26,492 bases of DNA from a virus, in IMG/VR virus record IMGVR_UViG_3300010354_000533, positions 1-26,492 of that record, one strand, 5' to 3'. This document shows positions 12,821 through 26,302 of this stretch, one piece after another; positions within the stretch are counted from its first letter, which is position 1, and every line of letters begins with the position of its first letter. The translations under genes were made by a program, and so were the position numbers. The notes beneath the pieces were generated by a model that was not told the DNA's origin, searched no databases, and worked only from the letters and a program-made list of their open reading frames with translations.

Positions 12821-13768
12821 TCACCCCTGCAGCCAGCGTTCAGCGCCGGCCCTGACGGCCCGATCGGCCAGGTTGTAAACAGGGATCCCGTACCCTCCAG
12901 CGACGCGGATCGCGTGCCCCGTGCCGCCCACGTCCTGCCCTCCTGGCGTCCAGACCACTAGGCGCTTCCGTGGCGCCTCGAGTTTCGGACCAAGCAGCAC
13001 CATCACGTTCCGGGCGTTGTAATCGCGACCGCCCGGCCTGTACGGGTCCTCGTATTCCCTAGCGATTCGATGCGCCTCCTGCCAGCTCGGATACTGCCTG
13101 CTGTTGAAGACCCTTCGACCGGCGTACACGGGATCAGGACCTCTTAGATCGCTCGCCCCTGTGAGGAAGATCGCCATCGCCTCAGGGTCGTCGACCAGTC
13201 GCGTTGCAGCCCGATCAGCTCCAGGGGCCCCGCCGTGGGCGATCCGTCCGCCGCCAGCAGCGTGCTTCTGACCGATCAGGGAAATCAGATCCAGCACATC
13301 GGGCGGCGTTGCCCGGGCACCCCCGAAGGCCCAGATCGGGCCGCTGGGAGCAGCAGTGGACGCGATCAGCGCCTGGCCAGCCATGCGGCTTGCATCCTCT
13401 GTGGACCGCTGGATCAAGGGGCGAAAGACTGTTTGCACGGCCCTTGGGTTGTAGACCTGGGCGCGCAGCGAGGGATTGGCGTCGACGTAGTTCAGATTCC
13501 ATCCCTCGTGCTGCTCCCACGCCTGCCTACCTGCCGGGCTCGCCAGGTCAGGCCTCGCCACAGTGACGACCTCGTAGGGGTTTGAGTCCCCCTGGAACGT
13601 GATCACGTCGCCTGCACTGGCGAATGGCCGGCGAGTCGTCGCTGTCCTCAGCCCCTGCTGAATCAGCTCCAGCGTGCTCGCGCCCCGTGGAAACCGCTGC
13701 AGCAGGTCCGGCCGGAGGGCGGCTACTGGCATCCGGTAATACATTGGGACGCCTTCGATCCGCGCCAT
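12821..13768 (-). CDS. ASCH-SLOG two-domain protein
   Basis: A 315-residue protein read leftward from the ATG at 13768 (MARIEGVPMYYR), with GGGTGG just before it; a GTG at 13774 adds two residues. Residues about 20-95 resemble an ASCH domain: 'LIQQGLRTATTRRPFASAGDVITFQG' (Lys/Arg-x-x-T-x-R and a Gly-Asp turn), then 'YEVVTVARPDL' and 'EQHEGW'. ASCH domains bind RNA or modified nucleosides. Residues about 145-302 form a Rossmann-like SLOG domain: 'FGGARATPP', 'HGGAPGADRAATRL' (nucleotide-binding Gly-rich loop), 'NARNVMVLLG', 'VVWTPGG' and 'GGTGHAIRVAGGYGIPVYNL'. SLOG proteins bind or process nucleotides and nucleotide-derived signals. The position among virion-type genes is unusual. Confidence 0.75.
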   Translation of the reverse strand: MARIEGVPMYYRMPVAALRPDLLQRFPRGASTLELIQQGLRTATTRRPFASAGDVITFQGDSNPYEVVTVARPDLASPAGRQAWEQHEGWNLNYVDANPSLRAQVYNPRAVQTVFRPLIQRSTEDASRMAGQALIASTAAPSGPIWAFGGARATPPDVLDLISLIGQKHAAGGGRIAHGGAPGADRAATRLVDDPEAMAIFLTGASDLRGPDPVYAGRRVFNSRQYPSWQEAHRIAREYEDPYRPGGRDYNARNVMVLLGPKLEAPRKRLVVWTPGGQDVGGTGHAIRVAGGYGIPVYNLADRAVRAGAERWLQG

Positions 13769-13859
13769 GTCCACCCGTGCAGCACAGGTGTAAGCCTAGG
13801 CAAGCGTGCTAGAGGATCCCAAACCTCTGTCTCAGCTCTCGTTGCAAGGCCTGGGAAGC

Positions 13860-17898: not shown

Positions 17899-18366
17899 AT
17901 GACGACCAGGACCATTCGCCGCATCCGGCGACCCTCTGAACTCCGTCCGTCCCGTAAATCCGCCGATCCAGAGCTGAGCTCCCTGTACCGCCTCTGGTCC
18001 AGGCTCTGCTCCAGGTACCTCGCCTGGGTGCGCCGCTCCCGCCAGGGGCCCTGTCCAGTTGCCGAGTCATGGGTCGAATGCTTTGACGCCTTCCACGCAG
18101 ACGTCGCCCCCAGGCCCAGCAACCACTCCATCAAGCCAGTCGACCCCGACCTGCCCCTGGGGCCAAGCAACTTCCGCTGGGTCCCCCGGGCCACTGGAAT
18201 CAAAGGCAACACGCCTGCCCTGATCAGCCACGACGGCCGGTCTCTCACGATCCGCGGTTGGGCCGAGCACCTCGGCATTCCGGAACCCACCCTGCGCTAC
18301 CGCCTCCGAGTCGGACTGCCACCCGAACAAGCCCTCGTTTCCACCAATCTCAGGAAAGTTGCCTGA
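17899..18366 (+). CDS. HNH-type endonuclease-like DNA-binding protein
   Basis: A 155-residue very basic protein from the ATG at 17899; earlier in-frame starts to 17719 would run through the promoter region. It follows the layout of phage HNH proteins: 'LYRLWSRLCSRYLAW' (helix), 'ESWVECFDAFHADVAPRPSNHSI' and 'DPDLPLGPSNFRW' (the family's D/H...D..Gy...NcrW core, around residues 68-94). A C-terminal helix-turn-helix follows ('RGWAEHLGIPEPTLRYRLRVGLPPEQAL', 119-146). Several usual HNH positions look changed (K79-P80-V81 where D-R-I/D is typical), so it may be a weakened or DNA-binding-only relative. It is coupled by TGATG to the primase gene. Confidence 0.65.
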   Translation: MTTRTIRRIRRPSELRPSRKSADPELSSLYRLWSRLCSRYLAWVRRSRQGPCPVAESWVECFDAFHADVAPRPSNHSIKPVDPDLPLGPSNFRWVPRATGIKGNTPALISHDGRSLTIRGWAEHLGIPEPTLRYRLRVGLPPEQALVSTNLRKVA

Positions 18367-20888
18367 TGGCCGCACGTCTCCTTGCCATTTCCATTAACAC
18401 CCGCATCCACGACAAGCCACCGGTTTGGCAGGAAGACTACGCCGACAACTGGCAATCGGGCGAGGCCGGTATCTCCGGGCTACGGGATGCGATCTGCCGA
18501 GGGCATGCCTTCATCCCCGCGGCGATGCGCGACTCCCATCGCAGTAGTGCTGCCTTCCTCCACGCGGATCTGGCCGTCGTCGACATCGACCACGGCCTTG
18601 ACCTGGATGGCTTCCGCTCCCACGCCCTCGCGTCCCACGCCTGCCTGATCTATACGAGCAGCAGCCATCGCCCCAAGCCAGGCCAGCACCGCTTCCGGGT
18701 CCTGTTCCGCCTCCCTGAGCGGATCAGCGACCCGGAGTTGTACAAGGCGATCGTCACCGCCTTGATCCGGGCCCTGGGCGGCGACAAGAGCTGCAGCGAC
18801 CCCTGCCGCATCTTCTACGGCAACAGCCGCTGCGAGCACTGGCTCAGCACCGAAGACACCCACCTGCCGGCCTCCTTCATTGAGGAGGCCCGGCGGGAAT
18901 GGCTGCGCAACAAGGCCCGCTACGAGGAGCGCTCCAGTGAGTGCGATCCCGCCTCGATCGAGCGGGCCATCCATGTCCTGGCCAGCGTCCTGCCGCCCAC
19001 CGCTGACGGGGAGCGGGATCGCTTCATCCGGATCACCGCGGCCGCAGCCTCCGCCGGCGACCTTCTCTTCCCCGCCTGGTGCGACTGGGCTATCCGGGGT
19101 CACCACGGCAGCGGCAAGAACCGCAAGCAGGCCAGCGAGCGCTTCTTCCGCGGTTTCTCCGGCCGCTCCTCCCTGGGCACACTCTTCTTCCTCGCCTCTG
19201 AGCAGGATCCGGACTGGCGCGACTCGCTCCCGGACGAGGTGCGCACCTCCGACGGCGGCTCACGCCGACCCCCTGGCTACTCCCACGAGGACTTTCTGGG
19301 GTATGACGACCCCGCCTATGGGGCGCCGAAGCCCGGGGCCCTCAAGACGCAGTCGATGTTCGACCTGATCGCGCAGGCGCCTCCACCGACCCCCGACGCC
19401 GGGACGGAACCGGACTCCGGGTGCACCCTGCCGCCCGAACCGCCCCTGCAGACTCCCGCGCAGGATCCCGATGAGAGTGATCCCGAGTTCCTCGGCCAAC
19501 CCGACGAACCCCTGCTGCCCAGCTCAGGACAGCCCAAGACACCCGAACCCAGCAAGCCGGCGCGAAAGGCGAGCAAGGGCAGCAAGAACGACAAGGGGCA
19601 GGGGACTGACGATGTCGCCCTGATCGAGGGCAAGGTCAAGGCCCGCTACCCAGGACTGCGATTCAACCGGCTCAACCTCTCCATCGAGTCCGGTCCCCGC
19701 AACAAGCCCGCCCTGGTGGACGACGCCGACAGGGCCTACCTGCATATCTCCAGGGGCGAAAGCCGCGTCCTCCCCAAGCAGCAGGTCCAGGACGTCATCC
19801 AGATGATCGCCTACGAGAACAGCTACAGCCCGGTTCTCGACTTCCTGGACAGCTGCAAGGACGAGGAGCCGATCGACTACTTCGACAGCCTCGCCTCCAC
19901 CCTGCTCGGACTCCCCGAGGAGGGGCCGGACAACCCCCGCCTGCCCGATGGCCGCCTACTGGCGGACGTTGTCCTCAGCCGCTTCCTGATCGCCGCGGTG
20001 GCCCGAGCCAGGAACCCTGGCTGCGCGCTGGGCTGGATGCCGATCCTGGTGGGCCCGCAGAACGTTGGCAAGACCAACTTCTTCCAGTACCTGACCCCCA
20101 AGGATCCAGTCTCAAAGGCATACACCTGGTGCCCAACGATTCAGCAGGGGATCAGCTACCTCAAGGAGCGCCCACACGTCCTGCACGCTGGCTGGATCGT
20201 CAACCTCGATGAGGTCGATCGCTTCTTCCGCAGGCGCTACACAGAGGAGTTCAAGAACCTGGTCACTGTCTCCGTTGATCGCTCCAGGCGCCTCTACGAG
20301 AACGAGCGCTCCTTCCCAAGAGCTTTCGTGCTTGCTGGCTGCACGAACAACAACACGTTTCTGGTCGACCCGACAGGCAACCGCCGCTTCATGGTGATCA
20401 CCGTGCTTGGGAAGGTTCCCAGCCGGGAGGACCCCCAGGCGCGAATCATCGACCTCGATCGGGTCAAACAAGACCACCGCCGAATCTGGGCAACCGCCCA
20501 ACGGGCCTACGCGGACGATATTCCATACGAGTTCTCTTCCAGTGAAACCAGCTACGCCGAGGACTACCTGGATGGATTCCGGGTTGACACCCCGCTCTCT
20601 GGCGCCCTTCGCGATGTGCTATCCAGGAACATTTCATTCCTGTACGAAGGGCGTCCTGCTTATGTCATGAATGACATTTTCCGATGGCTTGACATACCCC
20701 TTGACGCTGGCAGCGCCTCGAGCATGGGTCTCACCGACGAATTGCGGAAACTGGGGTATGAATCTAAGCGGCGCCGCGTCAACAATGGCCCAGCAATTCG
20801 CTTCTGGCAGCTCATCAAGCCTCCGTCCCAGTCCGAAGGCCCTGGCCTCCTGATGGACTGGCAGGACGACCGCAGCAGGCGCTACTGA
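18366..20888 (+). CDS. Primase-helicase (AEP-like primase plus VirE/VapE-type ATPase)
   Basis: An 840-residue protein from the ATG at 18366, which overlaps the stop of the HNH-like gene. Residues about 60-160 look like an archaeo-eukaryotic-type primase: 'LAVVDIDHG' (catalytic Asp73, Asp75), 'TSSSH' (98-101) and 'QHRFRVLFRL'; 'CSDPCRIFYGN' (143-153) fits the same fold. Residues about 200-283 resemble a PriCT linker domain. A Pro-rich disordered linker covers about 335-415. Residues about 520-690 are a VirE/D5-like ATPase: Walker A 'GPQNVGKT' (563-570), Walker B 'WIVNLDEVD' (610-618) and sensor region 'AGCTNNNTFLVDPTGNRRF' (657-675). Likely role: priming and unwinding for element replication. 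Confidence 0.9.
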   Translation: MAARLLAISINTRIHDKPPVWQEDYADNWQSGEAGISGLRDAICRGHAFIPAAMRDSHRSSAAFLHADLAVVDIDHGLDLDGFRSHALASHACLIYTSSSHRPKPGQHRFRVLFRLPERISDPELYKAIVTALIRALGGDKSCSDPCRIFYGNSRCEHWLSTEDTHLPASFIEEARREWLRNKARYEERSSECDPASIERAIHVLASVLPPTADGERDRFIRITAAAASAGDLLFPAWCDWAIRGHHGSGKNRKQASERFFRGFSGRSSLGTLFFLASEQDPDWRDSLPDEVRTSDGGSRRPPGYSHEDFLGYDDPAYGAPKPGALKTQSMFDLIAQAPPPTPDAGTEPDSGCTLPPEPPLQTPAQDPDESDPEFLGQPDEPLLPSSGQPKTPEPSKPARKASKGSKNDKGQGTDDVALIEGKVKARYPGLRFNRLNLSIESGPRNKPALVDDADRAYLHISRGESRVLPKQQVQDVIQMIAYENSYSPVLDFLDSCKDEEPIDYFDSLASTLLGLPEEGPDNPRLPDGRLLADVVLSRFLIAAVARARNPGCALGWMPILVGPQNVGKTNFFQYLTPKDPVSKAYTWCPTIQQGISYLKERPHVLHAGWIVNLDEVDRFFRRRYTEEFKNLVTVSVDRSRRLYENERSFPRAFVLAGCTNNNTFLVDPTGNRRFMVITVLGKVPSREDPQARIIDLDRVKQDHRRIWATAQRAYADDIPYEFSSSETSYAEDYLDGFRVDTPLSGALRDVLSRNISFLYEGRPAYVMNDIFRWLDIPLDAGSASSMGLTDELRKLGYESKRRRVNNGPAIRFWQLIKPPSQSEGPGLLMDWQDDRSRRY

Positions 20889-21793: not shown

Positions 21794-21868
21794 CTGGCCG
21801 TCCTCGCCTCGCAAGTCCCCATGCCCTCCCCCTGGGCTGCGCCTGCGACGCCGGCTGGCACTCACCCG

Positions 21869-22144
21869 ATGGACCGCATCGATCGGGAAGCCATCCAGGC
21901 CCTGCAGCGCGTTGACGACCCCTCCGACTTCCACGTCGTTCAGGCCGCACGCCTGGTCATTCGCTACCGCGACTCCCGGCTCTCCACTGACCTCTTCCCG
22001 CAGCTGCAGCAGACCCTGCAGCGCTGGTCCCTGACCGTCCCAGCCCTTTTCAGCCGGGCCCGCAGCATCTGGCAGTCCGGCTGGAAGCCCCAGTTCCTTG
22101 AGCAGGACGAAGCCATCGGGTCCGGCGCCGACGTGGAGGGCTGA
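21869..22144 (+). CDS. Hypothetical small protein
   Basis: 91 residues from the ATG at 21869 (MDRIDREAIQALQRVDDPSD); an ATG at 21821 would add 16 Pro/Ala-rich residues. It is mainly helical, with 'VVQAARLVIRYRDSRLSTDLFPQLQQTLQRW' and a Trp-rich end (SIWQSGWKPQFLEQDE). It is the first gene of the operon and lies two bases before the kinase GTG. No family recognised. Confidence 0.6.
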   Translation: MDRIDREAIQALQRVDDPSDFHVVQAARLVIRYRDSRLSTDLFPQLQQTLQRWSLTVPALFSRARSIWQSGWKPQFLEQDEAIGSGADVEG

Positions 22145-22146
22145 TC

Positions 22147-22896
22147 GTGTACCAATTCACCCTGATCGGCATCGCGGCATCCCGCGCCGGCTCCGGCAAG
22201 AGCACCGTGGCCAACTCCCTGGTCCACAAGGCCGGCTTCGTTCACATCCCCTTCGCCGGACCCCTCAAGCGCGTCGGGACAGCGGTACTCCTCGAGGCCG
22301 GTCTCACCGAGCTTGATGCCCGCCGCTTCCTCTACTGCGACAAGCACAGCGAGATCCCGGGCATCGGTGTCACCGGTCGTCATCTGCTGCAGACGCTTGG
22401 CACCGAGTGGGGACGCCGTCAGATACGGCCCAATCTCTGGCTGGACCTCTGGCTCCGGCAGATCGACATCCAGCGCAAGCGCGCCTGGCGTGAGTCGCGT
22501 CCCTGCCGCATCGTTGTCGACGACGTCCGCTTCCGTAACGAGGCCGAGCTCATCCGCAAGATGGGCGGCTTCAACTGGCTAGTCGAGCGTCCCCGCAGCC
22601 GCGAGGACAGCCTTCGAGACCTGCGCCAGCGCTTCTCCCCCCTCCAATTGATCCGTCACCCCGGGCGCCTGCTTCCCTGGAGGCTCCTGGCGCCCCTGCA
22701 CGCCTCGGAGGGCGGCCTGAACGGCTATCGGCGCTTCACTGCCCACATTCGCAACGACGGCACCATCCACGACCTCCTGGCGCAGTCCTGGGAGGAGCTC
22801 GCCAAGCTCCACATCAGGCCGGACGCCGCTACGTGGGCCCACCGCGGTTTCGATGCTCCCTGCCGCTCACAGGAACCACCCAAGGAGCCGGCTTGA
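22147..22896 (+). CDS. Deoxynucleoside monophosphate kinase
   Basis: A 249-residue protein from a GTG two bases after the preceding stop. The P-loop 'AASRAGSGKST' (10-20), 'HIPFAGPLKR' (33-42), 'GRHLLQTLGTEWGRR' (78-92, the family's 'qyLGTe.gR' region), 'CRIVVDDVRFRNEAELIRKMGG' (120-141) and 'HASEGGLN...IRNDGTIHDL' (185-210) match phage dNMP kinases of the T4 gp1 group. The enzyme phosphorylates dNMPs (in T4: dTMP, dGMP and the modified dCMP) with ATP. The C-terminal 35 residues are Pro-rich and probably disordered. It stands beside a dCTP deaminase and a deaminase-fold protein, forming a dNTP-supply cluster. Confidence 0.85.
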   Translation: MYQFTLIGIAASRAGSGKSTVANSLVHKAGFVHIPFAGPLKRVGTAVLLEAGLTELDARRFLYCDKHSEIPGIGVTGRHLLQTLGTEWGRRQIRPNLWLDLWLRQIDIQRKRAWRESRPCRIVVDDVRFRNEAELIRKMGGFNWLVERPRSREDSLRDLRQRFSPLQLIRHPGRLLPWRLLAPLHASEGGLNGYRRFTAHIRNDGTIHDLLAQSWEELAKLHIRPDAATWAHRGFDAPCRSQEPPKEPA

Positions 22897-22898
22897 CG

Positions 22899-23399
22899 AT
22901 GGACGACTCCGCACCAGAAGCGGCCACTGCTCCGGTGGCCCCACCCCCGGGTAACCACTCCACCTGGATGAGGCTGGCCTGGCTCGCATCCGGCGCTCCT
23001 GTGGCCTCCAGTCGTGACGCCAGTGGCGCCGTGGCCGTGCGCTGCGAGGGGTCGCAGCAGCCACGGCTGCTGATGCTGGCCAGCGGCCAGGACACGCGAA
23101 CCGCCCTGGCGGAGCTGGTCGTCCAGGCGGCGCGTAACGGCGTCAGCCTCCGGGAGGCGCACTGCTACCACTGGCCGCTGATCTCCTCGAAGGTCGACTT
23201 CCGCCAGCTCCTGGATTGCGGCATCAAGGCCGTCTACACCCCGGAGCTGGCCATCCCCAAGCGTCTGGCCGAGGTCAACAGTGTCGTTCGCTGGGAGGCC
23301 TCCTGCATGGGCGTCCAGATGCGCAGTCTCTCGATTGCCGCGGTCTTCGGTCCGCTGCGCGGCTCTCTCTGCGACGGCGTTGGGGAGATCCATGACTGA
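22899..23399 (+). CDS. Deaminase-fold protein lacking zinc ligands
   Basis: A 166-residue protein from the ATG at 22899, two bases after the kinase stop. The layout follows cytidine/deoxycytidylate deaminases: a core strand pair (GAVAVRC.. PRLLMLASG), then 'TALAELVVQAARNGVSLREAHCYHW' in place of 'hAE..ai..AArnGvsl.ga..Y.T', 'PLISSKVDFRQLLDCGIKAVY' in place of 'PC..Ca..ii.aGIkrVvY', and a last helix 'EASCMGVQMRSLSIA'. The zinc-binding His is Leu70, and both PCxxC cysteines are changed (Leu94, Ser97). The proton-shuttle Glu72 remains. It should therefore not bind zinc in the usual way. It may be a regulatory or ligand-binding relative. The fold call is mine and unsearched. Confidence 0.6.
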   Translation: MDDSAPEAATAPVAPPPGNHSTWMRLAWLASGAPVASSRDASGAVAVRCEGSQQPRLLMLASGQDTRTALAELVVQAARNGVSLREAHCYHWPLISSKVDFRQLLDCGIKAVYTPELAIPKRLAEVNSVVRWEASCMGVQMRSLSIAAVFGPLRGSLCDGVGEIHD

Positions 23400-23688
23400 G
23401 CGGCGGGCACGCCCCAAGGACATCGTCTGCGGCGTACGCGTCCGGCGAACCCCACCCCAAGGGCAGCAGCGGATCGGGCTGGTCACCCATGACCTTCCGG
23501 TCGGTCGCGACATGGTCGACGTCATCCCGGAGGGCTGCTCCACCGGTCGTGCCGAGGCCTGGCCCTTGAGTCAACTGACCTTGCTGCCCAAGTCACAACA
23601 GCTGGTCCGCCACGGCGGGTCTTTCGCGCCGCCCAAGGGTTACCCATTCCTCTTCCCCGCCACCCCAGGCGAGACTCCACCATGTTGA
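23392..23688 (+). CDS. Hypothetical protein
   Basis: A 98-residue basic protein from the ATG at 23392, overlapping the preceding gene by 8 bases and the next by 7. It begins MTERRARPKDIVCGVRVRR and has short beta strands and Pro/Gly-rich turns (PEGCSTGRAEAWPLSQLTLLP). Sandwiched by translational overlaps between two deaminase-related genes, it probably works with them. No family recognised. Confidence 0.6.
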   Translation: MTERRARPKDIVCGVRVRRTPPQGQQRIGLVTHDLPVGRDMVDVIPEGCSTGRAEAWPLSQLTLLPKSQQLVRHGGSFAPPKGYPFLFPATPGETPPC

Positions 23689-24299
23689 AGAACGATCGCT
23701 GGATTCGCGAGCAAGCAGCCGACGGCATGATCGAACCGTTCGTGCCGGAACTGGTGCGGAAGTTCGAGGTGAGTCTTGGCGGACTGGAGCCGTATGGCCC
23801 GATGTCGCGTCGCGTCCTCTCCTACGGCTGCAGTTCCTATGGCTACGACCTGCGCTTGAGTCCCAAGGAGTTCCTCATCTTCCGCCATGTGCCGGGCACG
23901 GTCATGAACCCCAAGCGGTTCAACCCCGCCAACCTCGAGCCGGCACCAATGCACAGTGACGAAGACGGTGACTTCTTCATCCTGCCGGGCCACAGTTACG
24001 GGCTTGGGGTCGCTCTTGAGCGACTCAAGATTCCCGTCAATATCACCTGCCTGTTCATCGGCAAGAGCACCTACGCCCGCCTCGGGGTCATCGCCAACCT
24101 CACCCCCGGGGAAGCCGGCTGGTCGGGTCACCTGACCCTCGAGTTCAGCAACGCCTCCGGGGCCGACTGCCGCATCTACGTCAATGAAGGCGTTGTCCAA
24201 GCCCTGTTCTTCGAGGGAGACCCCTGCGAGACGACCTACGAGGATCGCCGCGGCAAGTACCAGGACCAACCGGAAAGCGTCGTCGTAGCCAGGGTCTGA
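23682..24299 (+). CDS. dcd: dCTP deaminase
   Basis: A 205-residue protein from the ATG at 23682, overlapping the gene before it. Typical dCTP-deaminase/dUTPase-superfamily features are 'SYGCSSYGYDLRLS' (47-60), 'FFILPGHSYGLGVALERLKIP', 'IGKSTYARLGVIANLTPGEAGWSGHLTLEFSN' (126-157) and 'NEGVVQALFFEGD' (168-180). The catalytic Glu equivalent to E. coli Glu138 would be Glu154 within LTLEFSN. The enzyme converts dCTP to dUTP, feeding dTMP synthesis; some relatives also hydrolyse dUTP. Length is slightly above E. coli Dcd (193). It is the last gene of the nucleotide operon. Confidence 0.9.
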   Translation: MLKNDRWIREQAADGMIEPFVPELVRKFEVSLGGLEPYGPMSRRVLSYGCSSYGYDLRLSPKEFLIFRHVPGTVMNPKRFNPANLEPAPMHSDEDGDFFILPGHSYGLGVALERLKIPVNITCLFIGKSTYARLGVIANLTPGEAGWSGHLTLEFSNASGADCRIYVNEGVVQALFFEGDPCETTYEDRRGKYQDQPESVVVARV

Positions 24300-24670: not shown

Positions 24671-26302
24671 GTGTCCAATCTTGATGATTGTCGCGTACCA
24701 TCCAATTTCTCTTGTGGAGACTCGGTTTGCGGGGCCACCTGCGAGGAGGGCCGCTCGTGGCAGTTGAGCAATCCCACCTTGCCCCCCGAGGCCGTCGCCT
24801 GGCTTCGCCACGCCGCTGCCAGCGGCGAAACCCAGGCACAGATCCTGCTGGCGGTGGTGCAACGGCTGGAGGCCCTGGAAGCTCGCACCGCCGCGTCACT
24901 GGTGGCGCCGCAGCTGCAGCAGCCAGAACGTGTCTCCGAAGAGGAGAACGACCGCCGGTTCCGCGCCTGCATGGCCGCGATCGATGCCGCCACACCGGAG
25001 CAGATCAATGAGGCACTGGGGACGAAGCAGCAGGGGCACAAGGACAAGCTCGACCGCCTGATCGAGCAGGACGCCAAGGACGACGAAGGGCCCCAGACGC
25101 TTCACACCATTGCCCTGGGCATGGTGGACACCCTGGAGCAGATGCACCTGTTGCCCGAGATCCTCGACACCCTGCGCCGGGCGATCCGGGAGCCAATGCA
25201 GCAGGCCGACCCCGAAACAGCCCCGGTCGCCCCGGATGAGGAGCTGCGGAAGATTTGGCGCTTCAAGTCAGACGCGATTGTCAGCCTCCGCGACGTCTAC
25301 AACCTGGGCCGCGAGCACGGCGCAGCAGCCGCCCACTGCCCGCACATCCGCGGCAGCGACGAGGGCACCAGTTACTGCGCCTTGGCGGAGCAAGCCGCTA
25401 CCGTCAAGCCAACTTCTAACGATCGCCAGATTAGAAGTTCAGGGGATACCGCCGCGGTTGACCTCTCCTCCGCCGCGCAGGCGGTGAAAGATGCCGTGCT
25501 TGCGCTCTGCCCTGATGAGCGTGTTCGGGGCATGGCCTGGCCTCTGGCCAAAGATGAAGTCTCCGTCGCCCTCCGCGCTGTTGCGGATCAGGTGGTTCCG
25601 GCAGGCGGAAGTCGCAAGAACAATGAGATCCGATTCGAGATCCTTGCCATCGCCGCCGAGCTGGCCGCCGACTATTTTGCTGACGCCAGCAAAACGGCCC
25701 CTACCCCCGAGGCCGCCCCGGTTGCCCCGGATCACGAGCTGATCATGGCCTGGGACCGGCACATGCGTAGCGACATAGGTGACCGCCTCCGGGTCGTCTA
25801 CAACCTGGGCCGCGAGCACGGTGCAGCAGCCGCCCGCTGCCCACACATCCGCAGCAGCGACGAGGGCACCAGCTACTGCGCTTTGGCGGAGCAGACGGCT
25901 AACTTCAAGCCAACTTCTAACGATTGCCAGATTAGAAGTTTGTCTGATGCGCTGGGGGCGGCGGAGTGCGCGCTGGCGGACATCGCCGAACGCGAGCCAG
26001 AACCAGGTCACGGCCCGAGCTCCTCGGAATGGGGTGAGCGCCGCTGCGCCGACGCCCTGGCGATCATCCGCCCGGTGATGAAGCGGTACGGAATCCACGC
26101 TTCAGGGCCCGTCGCCGCTTGCCCTCCACCTGTCGGGGGGCTGGTCGAAACCGTCGCCAGGTCAATCGGTCAGGACGGCCATCCGGTCAACTGGAGGCCA
26201 GAAGCCCGCCGTGCCGTGCGACAGGTAGCCGAGTGGCTTGCGTTCCGGGGACAGCCCTGTGCCCAGTGGCTTCGCGATGAGTTGGAGGCCGGTCGTGGCT
26301 GA
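24671..26302 (+). CDS. Repeat-containing protein, cyanophage-like
   Basis: 543 residues from a GTG at 24671. A TTG at 24764 (MSNPTLPPEAVAWLRHAA) is an attractive alternative start because the 31 residues before it are Cys-rich and atypical. Two near-identical blocks occur, starting at residues 209 and 376: 'VYNLGREHGAAAA.CPHIR.SDEGTSYCALAEQ', each ending 'KPTSND[RC]QIRS'. The His, two Cys and Asp/Glu in each block could bind a metal (inference). A linker and a variable 'ERVRGMAWPLAKDEVSVALRAVADQV' helical segment separate them. I recall similar blocks in Synechococcus-phage proteins. Function unknown. The gene overlaps the 29-residue peptide gene by 8 bases. Confidence 0.75.
   Translation: MSNLDDCRVPSNFSCGDSVCGATCEEGRSWQLSNPTLPPEAVAWLRHAAASGETQAQILLAVVQRLEALEARTAASLVAPQLQQPERVSEEENDRRFRACMAAIDAATPEQINEALGTKQQGHKDKLDRLIEQDAKDDEGPQTLHTIALGMVDTLEQMHLLPEILDTLRRAIREPMQQADPETAPVAPDEELRKIWRFKSDAIVSLRDVYNLGREHGAAAAHCPHIRGSDEGTSYCALAEQAATVKPTSNDRQIRSSGDTAAVDLSSAAQAVKDAVLALCPDERVRGMAWPLAKDEVSVALRAVADQVVPAGGSRKNNEIRFEILAIAAELAADYFADASKTAPTPEAAPVAPDHELIMAWDRHMRSDIGDRLRVVYNLGREHGAAAARCPHIRSSDEGTSYCALAEQTANFKPTSNDCQIRSLSDALGAAECALADIAEREPEPGHGPSSSEWGERRCADALAIIRPVMKRYGIHASGPVAACPPPVGGLVETVARSIGQDGHPVNWRPEARRAVRQVAEWLAFRGQPCAQWLRDELEAGRG
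25295..25440 (+). repeat. 146-bp coding repeat, copy 1
   Basis: Nearly identical to 25796-25941, with no length difference and 501 bases apart. It ends in the perfect inverted repeat AACTTCTAA (25411-25419), 11-base spacer, TTAGAAGTT (25431-25439). This is much more AT-rich than the surrounding gene. Confidence 0.85.
25796..25941 (+). repeat. 146-bp coding repeat, copy 2
   Basis: Second copy of the block at 25295-25440. Both 9-base arms of the inverted repeat (25912-25920, 25932-25940) are identical to copy 1, while the spacer differs at one base (CGATTGCCAGA against CGATCGCCAGA). Confidence 0.85.

Follow-up and report, generated by a model that had tools for sequence, protein, structure and literature searches.

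A zinc-less protein of predicted dCMP-deaminase fold in a phage nucleotide operon

Inactive deaminase folds have been reused for partner or structural roles in ADAT3, in the N-terminal domains of APOBEC3 proteins and in the deaminase domain of plant PyrR. These examples are eukaryotic and belong to subfamilies other than that of the protein described here, and in most cases an active enzyme is fused to them or paired with them. The dCMP deaminases are ring hexamers, and their G(Y/W)N(A/G) motif is the regulator site (PMC12088426). In human CDADC1, the N-terminal domain is inactive, lacks the regulator motif and is an integral structural part of the oligomer, with helix 1 and helix 4 providing domain and subunit contacts (PMC12088426). 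No account of a dead dCMP deaminase from a phage was found in the open-licence literature.

The 166-aa phage protein analyzed here resembles the CDADC1 N-terminal domain in being a retained, apparently inactive deaminase domain without the regulator motif. However, the CDADC1 domain has lost the shuttle Glu alone, still binds zinc and is fused to an active domain, whereas the phage protein has lost all of the ligands and stands alone.

The gene and its operon

The window is a virus record of 26,492 nucleotides (26.5 kb). The features used below are, on this stretch:

18366..20888, + strand: VapE-like primase/helicase, the bait with which sister phages were found and the basis of the reference tree
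21821..22144, + strand: 107-aa protein, a locus marker found upstream in all sister phages
22147..22896, + strand: deoxynucleoside monophosphate kinase (DNMK; PF21448, phrog_139)
22899..23399, + strand: the subject, a predicted zinc-less dCMP-deaminase-fold protein of 166 aa (from its ORF, alignments, profiles and model)
23100..23108, + strand: Thr-Ala-Leu, codons 68-70 of the subject, aligned with His-Ala-Glu of active sister deaminases
23187..23198, + strand: Ser-Lys-Val-Asp, codons 97-100 of the subject, aligned with Cys-x-x-Cys
23392..23688, + strand: 98-aa protein of no known family, found beside the active or the dead deaminase gene in 20/20 loci that reach that far
23682..24299, + strand: dCTP deaminase (Dcd; DCD PF22769, TIGR02274 above cut-off)

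The last five genes of this list lie in the order 107-aa gene, dNMP kinase, subject, 98-aa gene and dcd, all on the + strand. The subject starts 2 nt past the dNMP kinase stop codon, overlaps the 98-aa gene by 8 nt at 23392, and the 98-aa gene in turn overlaps dcd by 7 nt at 23682. The GC content of ORF 22899-23399 by codon position is 0.69/0.54/0.84, and its neighbours are alike. This ORF is a real gene, tightly coupled to its neighbours. The preliminary description had called the flanking genes a dNMP kinase and a true dCTP deaminase, and both assignments stand, with PF21448 and phrog_139 for the former and PF22769 and an above-cut-off TIGR02274 match for the latter.

Two other regions of the window drew attention. 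Within ORF 24671-26302, which encodes a protein of unknown function, a 161-nt stretch occurs twice between 25210 and 25940, 501 nt apart and 90% identical, and a 37-nt pair is also present, constituting an internal duplication. On the other strand, at 12824-13774, a DprA-like protein (phrog_768, E 2e-23) is encoded amid reverse-strand genes.

Fold, lost residues and sister phages

Taken alone, the subject matched nothing in Pfam, PHROGs, NCBIfam, IMG/VR or 50,697 phage records; the dCMP deaminase family profile (PF00383, EC 3.5.4.12) is thus among those it does not match. A phmmer match to a designed Pizza protein was discarded as compositional. Nor did the subject match PF22769, the zinc-independent dCTP deaminase/dUTPase fold of Dcd, which is a different fold. 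With the dNMP kinase as bait no related loci were retrieved. The VapE-like primase/helicase used as bait yielded 6 and then 21 related contigs, some possibly incomplete, giving 22 records with the window. BLAST homologues lie in identical gene order at the first six sister loci. Across 20 records (16 with an active and 4 with a dead deaminase) the order is helicase, 107-aa gene, kinase where present, deaminase and 98-aa gene. Throughout this phage group the 98-aa protein accompanies the deaminase gene, in its live and dead forms alike.

Sixteen of the 22 records (the window's relatives L083-L085, L094-L097 and L100-L108) carry at this locus an active-type dCMP deaminase with HAE (HxE) and CxxC motifs. 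All 16 score above the PF00383 cut-off, sister proteins matching at 1e-17, and the three tested matched phrog_174. A zinc-less version is encoded in four records: the window, L082, L086 and L087. The remaining two, L098 and L099, show no deaminase gene, but their contigs run on past the 107-aa gene for ~2.3 kb and ~2.0 kb, and in their close relative L100 the deaminase starts ~2.4 kb beyond that gene. A PF00383 search of the sister phages revealed no further dCMP deaminase outside this locus.

The sister deaminases resemble the subject in position, gene order and predicted fold, and share with it the core residues A77, A78, G81, L84, P93, L104, P115, P120 and R122. Comparison of the zinc-less and sister profiles by hhalign gave a probability of 98% (E 6.7e-14). 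Moreover, the zinc-less profile scored 35-54 bits against the sister deaminases, whereas the dCMP deaminases of other phages reached no more than 17 bits; descent therefore appears local. The same profile found no member among the scanned bacterial and archaeal genomes. A model built by AlphaFold2 from a 20-sequence alignment (pLDDT 79.8, pTM 0.74) displays the expected a1-b1-b2-a2-b3-a3-b4-a4-b5 fold. Its best Foldseek matches are dCMP deaminases (E to 5.6e-7), and the VIA Z values are 16.2 to the PBCV-1 dCMP/dCTP deaminase (7fh4), 15.6 to 5c2o and 15.0 to the S-TIM5 enzyme. The four zinc-less sequences alone gave a weak model (pLDDT 52), whose top Foldseek match was again the PBCV-1 enzyme (E 0.026). 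Since the 20-sequence alignment took in active homologues, the model and the claim of homology are not independent; the claim rests on the hhalign result and the profile scores. The enzymes of PBCV-1, Streptococcus mutans (2hvw, 5c2o), cyanophage S-TIM5 (4p9c-e) and T4 (Cd, 1vq2) share this predicted fold with the subject (VIA Z 14-16, Foldseek E to 5.6e-7) at merely 15-20% identity, and all of them are zinc enzymes. The profile search and structure prediction proposed in the preliminary description thus both point to a protein of dCMP-deaminase fold and lineage by descent, and its view of a deaminase fold without zinc ligands inside a nucleotide operon is borne out by alignments, profiles and model.

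Placement of individual residues relied on gap-free blocks at QAARNGVSL ('AAR.G') and WPLISSKVDFRQLLDCG (P93 to G108), aligned with the true sister deaminases. The zinc His is replaced by Thr68 in the window and by G, S and S in L082, L086 and L087, and the HxE Glu by Leu70 and by I in all three relatives. Ser97 and Asp100 take the place of the two CxxC zinc cysteines; the relatives have D, R and P at the former position and D at the latter, Asp100 being invariant in 4/4 zinc-less members. These assignments differ from the preliminary ones, which had put the zinc His at Leu70, the cysteines at Leu94 and Ser97, and a retained shuttle Glu at position 72. Glu72 is aligned with the Asn of HAEAN, the catalytic Glu being Leu or Ile in all four, and since the relatives carry V, G and S at position 72 it is not a retained shuttle. 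A larger alignment moves the gap ahead of the QAARNGVSL block and still leaves Glu72 on the Asn. The ~20-residue loop that joins strand 2 to helix 2 and carries GYNG or GFNG in the sisters is deleted in 4/4 zinc-less members. The subject therefore has none of the HxE, CxxC and G(Y/W)N(A/G) elements of a dCMP deaminase. With the regulator loop gone, the ancestral sensing site would be gone too, and the proposed sensing of dCTP or dCMP pools through ancestral sites becomes unlikely, loop and catalytic residues having been lost together. Action on modified cytosine nucleotides, also suggested earlier, finds no support: the protein lacks the catalytic residues, and the early region of record G005 showed no dCMP-modifying enzyme.

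Descent and selection

The four zinc-less phages group as one clade in the helicase tree (100/100), and the loss was therefore probably one event. Deaminase identity falls to 0.26-0.27 across the divide between active and zinc-less phages, compared to 0.62 between active subgroups. The corresponding helicase values are 0.48-0.50 and 0.52. A drop in deaminase identity without a matching drop in the helicase indicates an abrupt change of this gene on that branch. The 98-aa neighbour was not sped up alongside the deaminase and thus gives no sign of co-evolution with it. Because scores are better to this group's own deaminases, descent in place is the better reading, compared to replacement by a very divergent homologue arriving with the kinase. 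Base composition was rejected as the cause of the loss of deamination: GC content is 62% in the dead clade and 61-62% in L083-L085, the active sisters closest to it.

Since the change, the zinc-less gene has been under purifying selection. For the closest pair, L086 and L087, dN is 0.15 and dS 0.97 (dN/dS about 0.16, a rough value with dS near 1), compared to 0.14 and 0.84 for the kinase and 0.11 and 0.64 for the helicase. Among L082, L086 and L087 the dN/dS of the subject gene is about 0.15-0.25. Several residues are newly invariant in the zinc-less clade: W23, M24, R25 and W28 in helix 1, and K121, L123 and W132 in helix 4. By analogy, these may be elements of the kind used for contacts in CDADC1.

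Possible roles and nucleotide supply

The dNMP kinase gene is present in exactly the four zinc-less records, directly upstream of the zinc-less gene, and in 0/18 others. We put at about an even chance the reading that the subject is a pseudoenzyme retained for its contacts with other proteins, the kinase being the first candidate partner. By the computations, the gene descends from the zinc-dependent dCMP deaminase that these phages originally had at the locus. Along the branch leading to the zinc-less clade, a dNMP kinase gene was inserted directly upstream, and the deaminase was stripped of its zinc ligands, of its catalytic Glu and of the loop contacting substrate and regulator while keeping its fold. 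The protein has been conserved since, presumably without enzymatic activity, and would act by contact, as a subunit that assembles or regulates phage nucleotide-synthesis proteins; the translationally coupled kinase would be the first candidate partner and the 98-aa neighbour the second. Judged from the sequences, what defines a pseudoenzyme, loss of catalytic residues with retention under selection, appears to be present here, and adjacency and co-occurrence make the kinase a candidate partner. A non-catalytic role in a nucleotide operon is the best remaining reading. However, a single event means that the co-occurrence with the kinase counts once, with no independent replicate, and the sister contigs encode no active deaminase with which the subject could pair. 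A bolder version, in which the arrival of the dNMP kinase came with conversion, in one step, of the deaminase into a stand-alone, metal-free kinase subunit or an inhibitor of the host deaminase, redirecting dCMP from dUMP to dCTP, is possible but doubtful.

The dead deaminase could instead target a host protein, for instance by entering the ring of the host dCMP deaminase, or a related ring, and poisoning or retuning it, which would leave dCMP to the phage kinase. We regard this as unlikely, though the best of the remaining alternatives. Rings of dCMP deaminases can house an inactive domain beside active ones, as in CDADC1 (PMC12088426), and the zinc-less phages presumably no longer have deaminase activity of their own and have acquired a kinase that could use dCMP. 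A little less likely again is that the fold now serves a new, metal-free activity or binds a ligand in a pocket that has been remodelled. At the place of the second zinc Cys, Asp100 and Phe101 do not vary, and selection is purifying, but the remainder of the old pocket is not conserved, with positions 68, 70-72 and 96-97 differing among the four proteins and the loop deleted. That the gene is a decaying relic without function is improbable: all catalytic residues are lost and identity lies below that of the helicase, yet the frame is open in four diverged phages, Trp, Arg and Lys positions have become invariant, and the dN/dS values reject such decay. Least probable of all is that the subject regulates or partners Dcd, encoded two genes downstream, given that this close linkage in the window is set against three of four carriers without Dcd and a window Dcd up to about 81% identical to those of phages without the locus.

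Dcd is absent from all sister records, including L082, L086 and L087 with contigs of 72-84 kb. When Dcd was used as bait, 80 loci were retrieved, none with other genes of this locus. Since close Dcds (79-81% identical in L002-L010) sit in unrelated contigs without the other locus genes, the window Dcd is probably a later acquisition, which further weakens the Dcd partnership raised in the preliminary description. The likeness to the L002-L010 Dcds, with no other locus gene shared, suggests recent transfer. The acquired Dcd may supply dUMP precursors no longer made by the dead deaminase. Dcd relatives occur in cyanophages and G005 encodes a DUF3288 protein, a family we take to be cyanobacterial, and on these grounds a cyanobacterial host is suggested.

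ThyX is encoded in 6/6 long sister records. A dATP/dGTP diphosphohydrolase (PF18909) is encoded by 12 of the 13 active-type records searched and by none of the four with a zinc-less protein, of which the window is a fragment. Its carriers (G002-G004, G007-G009, G011, G012, G014, G016, G017 and G019) all have an active deaminase, and no PurZ/adenylosuccinate synthase (PF00709) was found in these PF18909-bearing records. The whole dNTP supply of the zinc-less clade thus seems to have been altered.

Conversion of enzymes to non-catalytic partners is familiar from eukaryotes. Here the protein stands alone in a phage, and sister phages still encode the active ancestral form at this locus, so that the two forms can be directly swapped and compared in a clean system. 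If the dCMP-redirecting conversion were true, a free-standing pseudo-deaminase would act in a phage as a switch of nucleotide metabolism. Should the link to the kinase hold, it would show how the gain of one enzyme and the repurposing of another can alter the way a phage obtains its dNTPs.
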